DNA from: Methanosaeta sp. PtaU1.Bin112
GTDB taxonomy: Archaea > Halobacteriota > Methanosarcinia > Methanotrichales > Methanotrichaceae
NCBI GenBank assembly: GCA_002067705.1
Contig: MVRL01000112.1
Location: 1 to 64,000 of the forward strand
DNA length: 64,000 nucleotides
Direction of reading: 5' to 3'
Position 1 is the stretch's first letter, and the number at the start of each line of letters is the position of its first letter. Both the position numbers and the translations under genes were made by a program. The notes under the pieces are model-generated. The model made no database searches. It saw only the letters and a program-made list of their open reading frames with translations, and was not told where the DNA came from. This document shows positions 54,099 to 59,314 of the stretch, one piece after another.

Positions 54099-54971
54099 CT
54101 AAGCAGTAGCGTTACCAATGGTTGCATTAGTGGTTATTGTCACGTTCTCTGCAACAACAGGCGCAGCTGCGACAACTGGAATAAGCTGATTTACAAATAC
54201 CAGATCGGTCACGTTGGCATCGCTGATGTTCACAGTAGCTGTTCCCTCTGCGGGAGAGACGACATTCCAGCCCTCCATGATCAGCTCGGAGACTGTGTAC
54301 TCTCCGGCAGCCAATTCTGGGAAGGCAAACTTGCCGTCGGCTGCGGTGGGAACGCTATTGATGACTGCTCCGTCCTTTGTCAGGTTTACAGTCCAATCGG
54401 CCAAGCCGGTCTGGTTATTATCTACGACTATCCCTTCAATAGAGAAGGTGGTAGGCGCTGCCGCCTCAGGTGCAGCTGCGGGAGCAGCTTCAGCGGATGT
54501 TGTTGATGCGACTGTGGCTTCGGCTGATGGCGCGGGTGTGGTTGCAGTTTCGGCGGATGGTGTGGATGCGGCTGCTATTTCGCCAGCGGGTCCGGATGCA
54601 GCTGCATCATTAATGCTGCCCGTCATGCTGCCCAGCTTTGCGGTAGCCTTCACAGTCTTCATGCCCTCTGCAACTGCATTCTCGACACCTACCAGATTAA
54701 AGGAGTATCCTGCATTGTCTCCCTTCTGGAAGGAGTAGGCCAGCCTGGTGCTCTTAACGCCGGCAGACTTGAAAGAATACTTATTTGCCACCATATCCGG
54801 AGTCAGGTTATGGGCGGGAACATTTATTGTTTCTAAGCTATATCCGACAGGATTTCCTGATTTTACAGAATAAGATTGATTTCCTGCAGCTTGATTAGTG
54901 TACCCCAAAGCAGGCATTACAACGATGGCTGCTATCATGAGGGCCACAGTGATAGCCAAAATCTTCCTCAT
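54099..54971 (-). CDS. Secreted surface protein with an Ala/Ser/Thr linker and a Cna-B-like domain
   Basis: AGGAGGT lies before ATG 54971. The 290-residue protein has a signal peptide, a beta region, and an Ala/Ser/Thr/Pro/Glu linker (about 130-175, APSAEATVASTTSAEA type). A Cna-B/SdrD-like domain of about 80 residues (IEGIVVDNNQTGLADWTVNLTK, GKFAFPELAAGEYTV, VFVNQL) and a Thr/Asn-rich end follow. It may be a short relative of the repeat domains in the giant protein. Confidence 0.8.
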   Translation of the reverse strand: MRKILAITVALMIAAIVVMPALGYTNQAAGNQSYSVKSGNPVGYSLETINVPAHNLTPDMVANKYSFKSAGVKSTRLAYSFQKGDNAGYSFNLVGVENAVAEGMKTVKATAKLGSMTGSINDAAASGPAGEIAAASTPSAETATTPAPSAEATVASTTSAEAAPAAAPEAAAPTTFSIEGIVVDNNQTGLADWTVNLTKDGAVINSVPTAADGKFAFPELAAGEYTVSELIMEGWNVVSPAEGTATVNISDANVTDLVFVNQLIPVVAAAPVVAENVTITTNATIGNATA

Positions 54972-55184: not shown

Positions 55185-56120
55185 TCAGTCCCTCTGTTTT
55201 ATTTTTATGGTTGAGTCTCCCGTATGAAATAGGGGACTATGCATGAGACTATGCTCATTGCTGCCAATAGCAGATAATAAATGAGATCCATCGCAACTAA
55301 TCCCCGGAACCTTTGCCCATCCTTCCCGGCAGGTGGAAAACGTCATCTTCTCCCGTCGTGCACTCTCGTTTACCCTGTGCATCAAATCGCGTCTGATCTC
55401 CTCAGGAAGATATCCGCTGCCTGCAACCTTGCATCCTCGGGAAAACAGTCTCTCTAAAGCCTTCCCTTCCTGAGCAAAGACGGAGATGATCTTTTTCATG
55501 TTTCCCGGTCGGGTCTTAAAGGTCGAGGAAGTTATATGCCGGGCTCCTGCTCGTGAGACCGCGGCTGCCAGTTGATCGATCTCTTCGTCGTTTATGCCGG
55601 GAATGATGGGATCGATTCTGGCCGAAATGGGAACGCCTTTTGCCGATAGCTTAGCCATAGCATCGAGGCGTCTTTCCGGCGATGGCGCACCAGGCTCCAG
55701 CTTGCGGCATATGGATTCGCTCAGCGATGTGATGGTTATGGCCACGCAGGCCTTCATCTCGGAAAGAAGATCTGCGTCTCTTGCTACCAGATGCGACTTT
55801 GTCACCACCTGAGCACACAGACCTCGCTCTTTCAGGATCTGCAAGCATCCTCGGCTGAGCCGAAGCCCTTCTTCTTGAGGTGGGTAGGGGTCTGAGCTAT
55901 TGGATAATGAAACCAGTGTGCCCGGGCTGATCCTGGATGACTCCCGGACAAGCCTTCTCAGGAGATCGGCCTTGGGGCGGCACTCGGCAAAGCGGAGGAT
56001 GTAGGATGAGGCGTAACAGTAGAGACAGCCATGCGGGCACCCTGTGTAAGGATTGAGGCTCAACTTGGCCGGGCAGGTGCAAAGCTCGCTCTTCCAGGGA
56101 TCAAATGGTCTGAGGATCAT
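55185..56120 (-). CDS. SplB-like radical SAM protein
   Basis: The 311-residue protein carries the radical SAM cluster motif CPHGCLYC (Cys 28, 32 and 35) inside NPYTGCPHGCLYCYASSY. It also has the segments SLSNSSDPYPPQE, KSHLVARDADLL and RIDPIIPGINDEE found in the SplB (spore photoproduct lyase-like) radical SAM group. The start codon overlaps the ligase-like gene's stop (TAATG), so they are translationally coupled. The substrate is unknown; DNA repair is a guess from the neighbour and the family name. Confidence 0.85.
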   Translation of the reverse strand: MILRPFDPWKSELCTCPAKLSLNPYTGCPHGCLYCYASSYILRFAECRPKADLLRRLVRESSRISPGTLVSLSNSSDPYPPQEEGLRLSRGCLQILKERGLCAQVVTKSHLVARDADLLSEMKACVAITITSLSESICRKLEPGAPSPERRLDAMAKLSAKGVPISARIDPIIPGINDEEIDQLAAAVSRAGARHITSSTFKTRPGNMKKIISVFAQEGKALERLFSRGCKVAGSGYLPEEIRRDLMHRVNESARREKMTFSTCREGWAKVPGISCDGSHLLSAIGSNEHSLMHSPLFHTGDSTIKIKQRD

Positions 56121-57742
56121 TAGCTGCGGATCTCCTCCAGCCTGCTCAGCTCATCTGCATCACCAGGGGAGGCATTCAGAACGAACCCTTCAATTACAGG
56201 ATGATCAATGACATATCTTCCTGCACGTTTATGCGCTCCTTTAATCTTAAGGTTCAGGAGAACCTGCGCAAGGACCGGTTCCTCTGAATCGCCACCGACT
56301 TCGCATTCACCTTTGTTGATCGCCAGGGATTTCAAGGCATGAAAGAGTCTCAGCCGGTCAGGCTCAGATAGGCCGAATCCTGTCCATCCCACGGGCACTA
56401 GCTCATCATCGTTCCTCAACGCGACCTGATATTTCCCTGCCATGATCTCATTCTTGCCCTGGCCCCATGAGACCCGCACGATCATGGCAGCAAGCTTCTG
56501 CTCCGCTCCGATGATGAAATCTTCTTTGGAAATCATACCCGGCAGGTAAGGGGCCTCGGGATCTCTCATGAGCAATGCTCTGGCTCCTGCTGCCTTGCTG
56601 AACAATTCATCAACAGCCCCCGGGTCGGTGAGGACATACTCTGGGGCGGGAGATATTCCCTGAAATGGCATGATTTGGGGATTGCCGAGCATAGACACAA
56701 GCTTTTCTCGTCGATGTTGATAAGGCATGCTGCAGATGTCTTTGCCCTGCCAGGCAATGAGATCATAAGCCATAAGCGCGGGTCGAATTCTGCTCTTTCT
56801 GGAGAGATGACGGCGGTTTATGTACCACAGCATTTCCGCTTGGCTGCAGATGACATTTCTCAGGCTGCCGCGGTCTTGAAATCCTATGAGAAGGCAATCT
56901 GCGACAAAATCAGATTCGACTCTATCGAGCTGAAGGGTTATGTTGCTCAGGAACGCGGTGATATTCCGCAGATGGCTGGTGAAGATGAACGTCTCTTTTT
57001 TTCCTTTATGAACCTGCACCCTCAAGCCCGGATATCTGGGCAGAAAGCATCCCGGCACCTCTGGATCTCTCTGGCGAAATAGCATAAATCGGATGGGGGT
57101 TTTAGCCTGTACGGTAGCTTCATTCAGCTTTCGCCATTGAGCCATGACGGCAATGCTTCCCAGATCCGGCTTGAGGCTGTAGGCCCTCTCTATCTCCTCC
57201 GGATCGCAGTTCAGCGATGAAGAGATGGCGGCGATCATGGTCTTATGACCGATGCCTGCTTGCAGATTTCTCAGGGCCGTACGGGCGATAAACTTTCCTT
57301 CCTGTGGTGTCGCTTCCAAAAATAGGCCCCTTAACAGGGCGTTCTTCCGCTGCTCCGATTCTTTACCCCTCATCTCGGAGATACGCCGGAGACTTTCGTA
57401 TACCGACAGGGCTTTAAGAGGCTCGTGAAAAAGTGAGTGCTGCCCTTTCTGCTCCAACGCGGCTTCCGCCACCTGTCCTATATCAGAAAATCGTTCCCAC
57501 AGAGAAGGTATATCTTGGTCGGATACCTCAGCCAGCGCCGTCATGAGGGCCTCCGGGCCGATGCCCATCTCCCTTTCCTCCCAGGGCGGCCAGAGTTCTC
57601 CTAAAAGCAGCCGTACCGCTGGACAGAGCATCTCGCTATCAGGCTCTATCTCAGAGAGAAGGCCCGCCGCTAGATCGGCTTTACATCCACGTGATGCACG
57701 GGAGATCTCTTGCAGAGCCTGGGCGATTCGAGAGTAATGCAT
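56120..57742 (-). CDS. DNA-ligase-fold protein lacking the catalytic lysine (probable pseudoenzyme)
   Basis: The 540-residue length and layout match archaeal ATP-dependent DNA ligases: a helical DNA-binding domain (about 1-200, KNALLRGLFLEATPQEGKFIARTALRNLQAGIG), an adenylyltransferase domain and an OB domain ending IKGAHKRAGRYVIDHPV. Motif I, normally KYDGxR, is RYPGLR with Arg at about residue 236. Motif III (FSRRLED) is FTSHLRN, the motif IIIa Glu is lost (DFVADCLLI), motif IV EGLMxK becomes RALLMR, and the motif V lysines are absent. The DNA-binding fold is kept, so a nick- or lesion-binding role is inferred. It is the middle gene of a three-gene operon. Confidence 0.85.
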   Translation of the reverse strand: MHYSRIAQALQEISRASRGCKADLAAGLLSEIEPDSEMLCPAVRLLLGELWPPWEEREMGIGPEALMTALAEVSDQDIPSLWERFSDIGQVAEAALEQKGQHSLFHEPLKALSVYESLRRISEMRGKESEQRKNALLRGLFLEATPQEGKFIARTALRNLQAGIGHKTMIAAISSSLNCDPEEIERAYSLKPDLGSIAVMAQWRKLNEATVQAKTPIRFMLFRQRDPEVPGCFLPRYPGLRVQVHKGKKETFIFTSHLRNITAFLSNITLQLDRVESDFVADCLLIGFQDRGSLRNVICSQAEMLWYINRRHLSRKSRIRPALMAYDLIAWQGKDICSMPYQHRREKLVSMLGNPQIMPFQGISPAPEYVLTDPGAVDELFSKAAGARALLMRDPEAPYLPGMISKEDFIIGAEQKLAAMIVRVSWGQGKNEIMAGKYQVALRNDDELVPVGWTGFGLSEPDRLRLFHALKSLAINKGECEVGGDSEEPVLAQVLLNLKIKGAHKRAGRYVIDHPVIEGFVLNASPGDADELSRLEEIRS

Positions 57743-58051
57743 TTACCTCGCTATCTTGATCTTTAAAAGGTCCTCTGTCCTCTTGGCCAGATCCTCAATC
57801 ATGCCATCGAGCTCTCTCAAAAAAGACTGCGTTTCCTCCGTAGTCACCGCGCCTGGGGCGGAAGCCTTGATCAATCCTTCCTGCTCTAAGACTCGAAGAG
57901 AATAGCGTACCTTATGACTGGGTATCTTTGTCTCCTCGGCCAGCTTGAGGATGCCTATGGGCTCATTCTCCACGACTTTATTGAGGACGACCAGGTGCCG
58001 TTGTAGCATCTCAAGCTCGCTGCTCACCTTCTCGGTCAGAATCTCTATCAC
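57743..58051 (-). CDS. Small HTH DNA-binding protein, first gene of the ligase-like operon
   Basis: This 102-residue winged-helix-type protein begins at GTG 58051, with GAGAGG close upstream; the exact start is uncertain. The HTH region is GILKLAEETKIPSHKVRYSLRVLEQEGLIKAS, followed by a C-terminal helix (FLRELDGMIEDLAKRTEDLL). It abuts the ligase-like gene with no gap, so it probably controls or assists that operon. It is archaeal in type. Confidence 0.8.
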   Translation of the reverse strand: MIEILTEKVSSELEMLQRHLVVLNKVVENEPIGILKLAEETKIPSHKVRYSLRVLEQEGLIKASAPGAVTTEETQSFLRELDGMIEDLAKRTEDLLKIKIAR

Positions 58052-58195: not shown

Positions 58196-59314
58196 TCAGT
58201 AGCGCGCCCGGCGAGGGAGGAAGTCTATGCCATGCCGGGATGTCACACGCCGATTCAGATCCTTTCCCAGTATCTGCGGCGATGATACACCGGTGACCAC
58301 GAGCATTGTTCGCAGAGTATGCTGCAAATTTGGATCGATCTGTGCGCCCCAGATGATGCGGGCATCGGGATTGATCTTCTGATATACCTCATCAACTACC
58401 GTTTCGGCATCTGTGATGGTCATATCCGGGCCGCCTACCACGTTAACCAAGGCGGAGTTTGCGCCGGATACATCTACATCCAATAGAGGGCTGCGCAGAG
58501 CCTTCGTAACAGAATCACGTGCTTTCTCTTCGCCTTCCGCCTCACCCATGCCGATCATGGCGACGCCACCATTGGTCATGACCGTTCTTACATCGGCAAA
58601 GTCCAGATTGATCAGTCCAGGACGGGTGATCAACTCCGTGATGCCCTTGACCGAGCGCATCAATACTTCATCCGCCACTTTAAAGGCCGCTTGCAGGGGA
58701 AGATTGGGGACGACGTCCAGTAGACGGTCGTTGGGCACCACGATTACCGTATCAGAAACCTCTCGCAGCCTCTTTAGTCCTGCTTCAGCATTCTGCATTC
58801 TGATGGTGCCTTCCGCACTGAAGGGGATGGTGACGATGGCAATGGTAAGAGCTCCTGCCTCTCGCGCAGCTTCTGCGACCACGGGTGACGCGCCTGTGCC
58901 TGTGCCACCACCCAATCCGCAGGTAACGAAGACCATATCCGCACCTTCCACAGCGGCTTTGATCTCATCGATATCCTCCTGGGCAGCCTCTTCTCCGATG
59001 GCCGGCAAGCTTCCCGCCCCCAGGCCGCGAGTGGTGCGTCTGCCTATGAGAAAACGCCGATCGGCATTGATATGCAAGAGATGCTGGGCATCGGTATTTA
59101 AGGCAAAAAGCTCTGCGCCTTGGATGCCGCACTCTGCCAGGCGGTCGATGGTATTCGAGCCGCCTCCGCCGCATCCTATGACACGGATAACCGTGGTCAG
59201 CTCCTCCAGAACCCCAACCAGCTCTTCATCGCTCTGGATTAAGCTGGACGGCTTGATTCTGCTCTCGGCCTCAGATCTGCCCAGGGCTTCGTCGATGATG
59301 TACTTAATCTCCAT
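58196..59314 (-). CDS. ftsZ: FtsZ cell-division GTPase
   Basis: This 372-residue tubulin homologue forms the division ring. The N-terminus has the archaeal FtsZ extension, then [19 protein letters not shown], the tubulin signature GGGTGTG at 135-141, and [11 protein letters not shown], which corresponds to the T7 synergy loop. A short C-terminal tail follows ([13 protein letters not shown]). It is a single-copy gene with its own promoter. The GTPase residues are intact. Confidence 0.97.

Follow-up and report, generated by a model that had tools for sequence, protein, structure and literature searches.

Gene, domains and neighbours

The window, the whole stretch of 64,000 nucleotides that was analysed, carries on its reverse strand a gene for a degenerate paralogue of the archaeal DNA ligase LigI, referred to below as the pseudo-ligase. 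The gene, its domains, its altered motifs and its neighbours are as follows.

58196..59314 (-): ftsZ, a conserved upstream neighbour
57743..58051 (-): winged-helix protein, 102 aa, directly upstream of the pseudo-ligase, TAA and ATG abutting
56120..57742 (-): pseudo-ligase coding sequence, 540 aa, degenerate archaeal LigI paralogue
57128..57742 (-): DNA-binding domain, aa 1-205, the most constrained domain (Pfam DNA_ligase_A_N, PF04675, 6.8e-33, above cut-off)
57428..57442 (-): QHSLF, aa 101-105, a PIP-box-like loop that aligns with QKSFF of archaeal ligases
56510..57109 (-): degenerate adenylyltransferase (NTase) domain, aa 212-411 (Pfam DNA_ligase_A_M, PF01068, 4.7e-8, weak but above cut-off)
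57020..57043 (-): motif I site LPRYPGLR, aa 234-241, Arg236 replacing the adenylated Lys
56564..56581 (-): motif IV site, aa 388-393, Glu replaced by Arg388 and Lys by Arg393
56507..56521 (-): motif V site, aa 408-412, I410 and G412 in place of the two Lys
56123..56509 (-): OB-fold domain, aa 412-540, motif VI lost (Pfam DNA_ligase_A_C, 0.15, below cut-off)
55185..56120 (-): radical-SAM protein, PA0069/Rv2578c-like below the family cut-offs, its start overlapping the pseudo-ligase stop by 1 base

The intact frame of 540 codons claimed by the sequence-only reading was confirmed, running from ATG (57740-57742) to TAA (56120-56122) with no internal stop. A phmmer search against archaeal ligase structures gave about 4e-45 across residues 1-537. 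All three domains were visible in the AlphaFold2 model (mean pLDDT 88.7), and its best Foldseek matches were archaeal LigI structures (E 1e-37 to 1e-25; TM to query 0.63-0.73). The large rmsd in these matches suggests that the domains of the model are arranged differently from those of the LigI structures.

The junctions in the window were TAAATG between the winged-helix gene and the pseudo-ligase (abutting) and TAATG between the pseudo-ligase and the radical-SAM gene (overlapping). The order ftsZ, winged helix, pseudo-ligase, radical SAM was kept in most genomes. The radical-SAM gene was absent in genera g4 and g9, unlinked in g5, and otherwise family-wide; the winged-helix gene was likewise unlinked from the pseudo-ligase in g5. 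The winged-helix gene is older than the pseudo-ligase operon, because it was found across Methanosarcinaceae in another context and without a pseudo-ligase. An obligatory partnership with the winged-helix or the radical-SAM gene was ruled out, and the operon suggests joint expression rather than an obligate complex. The link of the pseudo-ligase to repair is loose, because two genera lack the radical-SAM partner and one more has it unlinked. We know of no tested function for the PA0069/Rv2578c families.

The winged-helix gene was among the most conserved of the region after ftsZ, and almost every sampled genome of the class had it; in Methanosarcinaceae its abutting neighbour is a fumarylacetoacetase-like gene, and a gene read from its sequence as probable gltX lies nearby. 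A secreted SdrD_B/SpaA-like protein with an Ala/Thr-rich linker is encoded at 54099-54971 (dN/dS 0.21-0.38, weaker constraint), and such a gene lies downstream of the operon in many relatives.

Catalytic motifs

Motif definitions and roles followed PMC4609770, and residues were counted in an alignment of 38 pseudo-ligases with 25 true ligases. KxDGxR of motif I was RYPGLR in the window protein, with Pro in place of the KxDG Asp and R236 (codon AGA, 57035-57037, one transition away from a Lys codon) aligned with the motif I Lys of archaeal ligases. Motif III was changed from DGE to DCL (Glu to Leu), motif IIIa from FD to YD, motif IV from EGxxxK to RALLMR, and motif V from KxK to I-I-G. Motif VI (R..R..DK) contains the RxDK required for step 1 (PMC4609770), and no RxDK was found in the window OB domain by alignment. 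None of the residues that identify a LigI enzyme was present (motif I Lys, motif IV Glu and Lys, motif V Lys-x-Lys, motif VI RxDK); the motif I Arg (R241) and the motif IIIa Asp (D327) were retained and every catalytic Lys was absent. The earlier claim that all catalytic Lys had been lost agreed with the alignment, where those of motifs I, IV and V were gone. Its claim of a lost motif III and a lost IIIa Glu stood for the Glu of motif III and was imprecise for motif IIIa, in which the Asp was kept.

The motif I residue of the 38 pseudo-ligases was Lys in 17, Arg in 15, Ala in 3 (all from one divergent genus, where the alignment is uncertain), Val in 2 and Leu in 1, and the site required at least 10 changes on the tree. 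The sequence-only reading had asked whether Arg replaces this Lys throughout a clade, which it did not, and had proposed a selected loss of the Lys; motif I was not where selection acted. The KxDG Asp, the motif IV Glu and the first motif V Lys were each found in 0 of 38 pseudo-ligases vs 25 of 25 true ligases, and the motif IV Lys and the second motif V Lys each in 1 of 38 vs 25 of 25. The three residues found in no pseudo-ligase, together with motif VI, make up the clade-wide losses as read from the alignment. Given its mixed residues and repeated changes, the motif I site appears to have been free to drift, mostly among basic residues, after catalysis fell via other motifs; the Arg of the window is incidental rather than the defining event. 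The catalytic death of the pseudo-ligase is well supported, being as secure as sequence can make it, in agreement with the pseudo-ligase proposed by the earlier reading.

Members with a motif I Lys might still act as a nucleotidyltransferase or nucleotide sensor, and the conservation of G239, R241, Q243, H245 and D327, together with a motif IIIa aromatic retained in 30 of 38, would suit such a role as much as the 17 Lys. This is nevertheless very improbable, in view of the three residues missing from all members, of a motif VI absent or lost, and of the free exchange of Lys and Arg at motif I.

Distribution, OB domain and selection

The pseudo-ligase was present as a second copy beside a normal LigI in 36 of 37 Methanotrichaceae genomes (11 genera), the sole exception being 56% complete; the copy is conserved across the family. 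No pseudo-ligase was found in two other families of the same class, and in a 295-genome sample of the phylum the type was confined to Methanotrichaceae, all 23 outside matches inspected having canonical K[YF]DG. A scan of one genome per species (84,980 species) returned 32 pseudo-ligase loci, titled Methanothrix, Methanosaeta, Methanotrichaceae or, for some, just Methanosarcinales or "uncultured archaeon"; save for the last, no locus in the scan was titled outside Methanotrichaceae or its order.

The pseudo-ligases formed one clade (support 100/100) with a long stem of about 1.3-1.4 changes per column, placed on this long branch outside the group of Methanotrichaceae and Methanosarcinaceae LigI. 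A recent duplication of Methanotrichaceae LigI was not supported by this position, although the branch is long and the AU test against grouping the pseudo-ligase clade with the family LigI was marginal (p = 0.0485), and non-significant with Methanosarcinaceae included (p = 0.225). Some Methanosarcinaceae (L067, L069, L070, L072, L073) encode a second ligase with intact EEKYDGER, which is a different paralogue.

The retention of all three LigI domains, claimed by the earlier reading, held for the window protein by structure alignment, AlphaFold2 and Foldseek, and did not hold as a family trait. The LigI-type set of DNA-binding domain, adenylyltransferase and OB fold was incomplete in 25 of 38 pseudo-ligases, which lacked the OB domain and ended shortly after motif V. 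The state of the OB domain required at least 10 changes on the tree, and on the aligned sequences the domain is judged to have been lost at least 10 times, regain being implausible. Four genomes kept remnants: G020 has an in-frame deletion, G021 a frameshifted piece, and G013 and G032 pieces further downstream. Loss of the domain is not an assembly effect, since both states occurred in genomes of one or two contigs (G004 full length; G130 and G252 without OB). A member without the domain had a confident predicted fold (pLDDT 90.3). Because the OB domain is dispensable, the pseudo-ligase cannot need the closed three-domain ring of LigI around a nick.

The dN/dS of the window gene against nine same-genus relatives (Nei-Gojobori; dS partly saturated, and some dS values >1 and indicative only) was 0.15-0.24 for the whole pseudo-ligase, 0.09-0.15 for its DNA-binding domain, 0.13-0.31 for its NTase domain and 0.24-0.35 for its OB domain; the neighbours had 0.01-0.03 (ftsZ), 0.05-0.11 (winged helix) and 0.12-0.17 (radical SAM). 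Entropy was compared by its order inside each set, the two sets differing in depth: the NTase domain (1.13 bits) was more conserved than the DNA-binding domain (1.40 bits) in true ligases, and the DNA-binding domain (1.56 bits) more than the NTase domain (1.85 bits) in pseudo-ligases. The order of conservation is inverted in the pseudo-ligases relative to the true ligases.

A decaying pseudogene could account for the fast evolution seen in the stem and for the stops and frameshifts that interrupt OB remnants of some genomes, but residues about 1-411 were open in nearly all genomes, with a dN/dS of 0.09-0.31 there, and decay is scarcely credible. The earlier claim of a retained rather than decaying protein was upheld by the overall dN/dS and the intact frame, the gene being under purifying selection that is centred on the DNA-binding domain. 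That the pseudo-ligase has been kept by selection for a non-catalytic role is well supported.

Putative role and comparison with known ligases

The loop QHSLF aligned with QKSFF of Thermococcales ligases, which is important for PCNA binding in the Pyrococcus furiosus (Pfu) ligase (PMC6212441). It also resembles the atypical PIP of human Lig1, 390-QRLML-394, whose Gln and +4 residue sit in PCNA pockets (PMC9767926). Q101 was found in 38 of 38 pseudo-ligases and Leu or Ile at position 104 in 38 of 38, in a loop that was otherwise hypervariable; the aromatic at +5 was variable. Among 411 positions this was the only conserved-x-x-conserved pair with hypervariable surroundings, and Gln101 was the only invariant polar residue in predicted coil. 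The loop has the Gln at +1 and the aliphatic residue at +4, within a DNA-binding domain, that define the PIP_DBD type. The Q-x-x-L/I loop is the best sequence clue to a putative function, a motif this short being weak evidence of PCNA binding. In the true LigI of the family, Pro occupied the site of the PIP Gln in 11 of 11 genomes sampled (e.g. L087:5946-7619), with Phe or Leu at +4 and a longer loop; LigI of Methanosarcinaceae retain the Gln.

Residues R161, E166, G167 and R170 surround the Gly turn G163-G165. True ligases show no or almost no variation at these positions, and in pseudo-ligases most of them were changed. The net charge of the window DNA-binding domain was -6, and the DNA-binding domains of the family's true LigI are likewise acidic. 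DNA binding by the pseudo-ligase may therefore differ from that of LigI, and may be altered or absent, because the Gly-turn residues are changed and the window domain is not basic overall.

The pseudo-ligases also had invariant residues of their own (R44, W54, R132, P192, N309) that differ from those of true ligases, and a clade-specific basic segment, YINRRxLSRK (aa 307-316). These residues, and tight coupling with the winged-helix gene in most genera, would fit a novel function in binding DNA or RNA, independent of nicks and of PCNA. In it the DNA-binding domain and YINRRxLSRK would contact nucleic acid or a partner protein, and the pseudo-ligase might be a co-regulator alongside the abutting winged-helix protein. 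Such a function is rather unlikely: it leaves the invariant PIP-like pair unexplained, and the winged-helix gene occurs without the pseudo-ligase in Methanosarcinaceae and apart from it in g5.

The reading that we favour, with a probability of roughly 0.55, is that the pseudo-ligase is a LigI paralogue without chemistry, kept as an adaptor that binds PCNA and DNA but does not seal, with a possible part in repair. A LigI-type paralogue would have lost its chemistry before or early in Methanotrichaceae and been kept as a binding protein. It would dock on PCNA via the Q-x-x-L/I loop, and its DNA-binding domain would hold DNA without sealing it. Since this loop and the DNA-binding domain were retained, it could act without catalysis as an adaptor or placeholder where PCNA marks a nick or gap and, for example, delay LigI or present the site to a repair enzyme. 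More tentatively, and with odds somewhat against it, such a family-wide natural pseudo-DNA-ligase, occupying PCNA and DNA without sealing, would be a non-catalytic regulator in archaea, dedicated to nick sealing or to the hand-off of repair.

Were the pseudo-ligase a decoy or an inhibitor, it would compete for PCNA or DNA ends with LigI or with the NHEJ ligase. That explanation would draw on the shared position of the PCNA-docking loop, on the contrast of Pro in true LigI with Gln in the pseudo-ligase in all 11 genomes sampled, and on the Ku and LigD-type ligase of the window genome. It is improbable as a separate explanation. Ku was found in 22 of 37 family genomes vs 36 of 37 for the pseudo-ligase, so that NHEJ is not a shared target, and a competing protein would be a variant of the adaptor model, inseparable from it here. 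A general role in NHEJ was rejected on the same patchy occurrence of Ku, and for anti-phage defence PADLOC gave no match of the pseudo-ligase to a known defence family.

Other enzyme families have well-known pseudoenzymes. No natural pseudo-ligase or inactive LigI paralogue in Methanothrix/Methanosaeta was found in the open-access literature searched, and a natural dead LigI paralogue fixed in one family seems to be undescribed there. The second copy seems to have been overlooked, since a survey of 2006 gave Methanosaeta only one ATP-dependent ligase (PMC1684257). The gene should not be annotated as a DNA ligase. If its binding of PCNA and DNA is real, the family would offer a natural system, whose members have or lack OB and carry either Lys or Arg at motif I, in which what a ligase does as a scaffold could be told apart from its chemistry. 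Engineered inactive LIG4 is currently used to address this question (PMC9638927).

The window genome encodes a normal LigI, a LigD-type ligase beside Ku, and the pseudo-ligase. Its LigI (G000 C148, 558 aa) belongs to the same family as the pseudo-ligase (28% identity), but has EWKYDGAR and all motifs intact, and Pro at the PIP Gln. The LigD-type ligase (G000 C104, 321 aa) has the PF01068 domain in common with the pseudo-ligase, with catalytic and OB domains intact above cut-off and no DNA-binding domain. It forms a two-gene NHEJ cassette with Ku (282 aa) at about 46.3-48.2 kb (G000 C104; L166:2365-4194).

The pseudo-ligase shares domain order, fold and the position of the PIP-like loop with LigI-type ligases (Thermococcus 6wbo/9dfa/3rr5, Archaeoglobus 3gde, Pyrococcus furiosus 2cfm, human LIG1), and differs from them in the loss of the catalytic Lys, the motif IV Glu and motif VI, in an optional OB domain, and in a constraint shifted to the DNA-binding domain. 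Inactive human LIG4 (K273A) remains able to promote repair in a scaffold role (PMC9638927) and is a functional precedent for a ligase without catalysis; LIG4 K273A is an engineered NHEJ mutant with other partners, whereas the pseudo-ligase is a natural paralogue.
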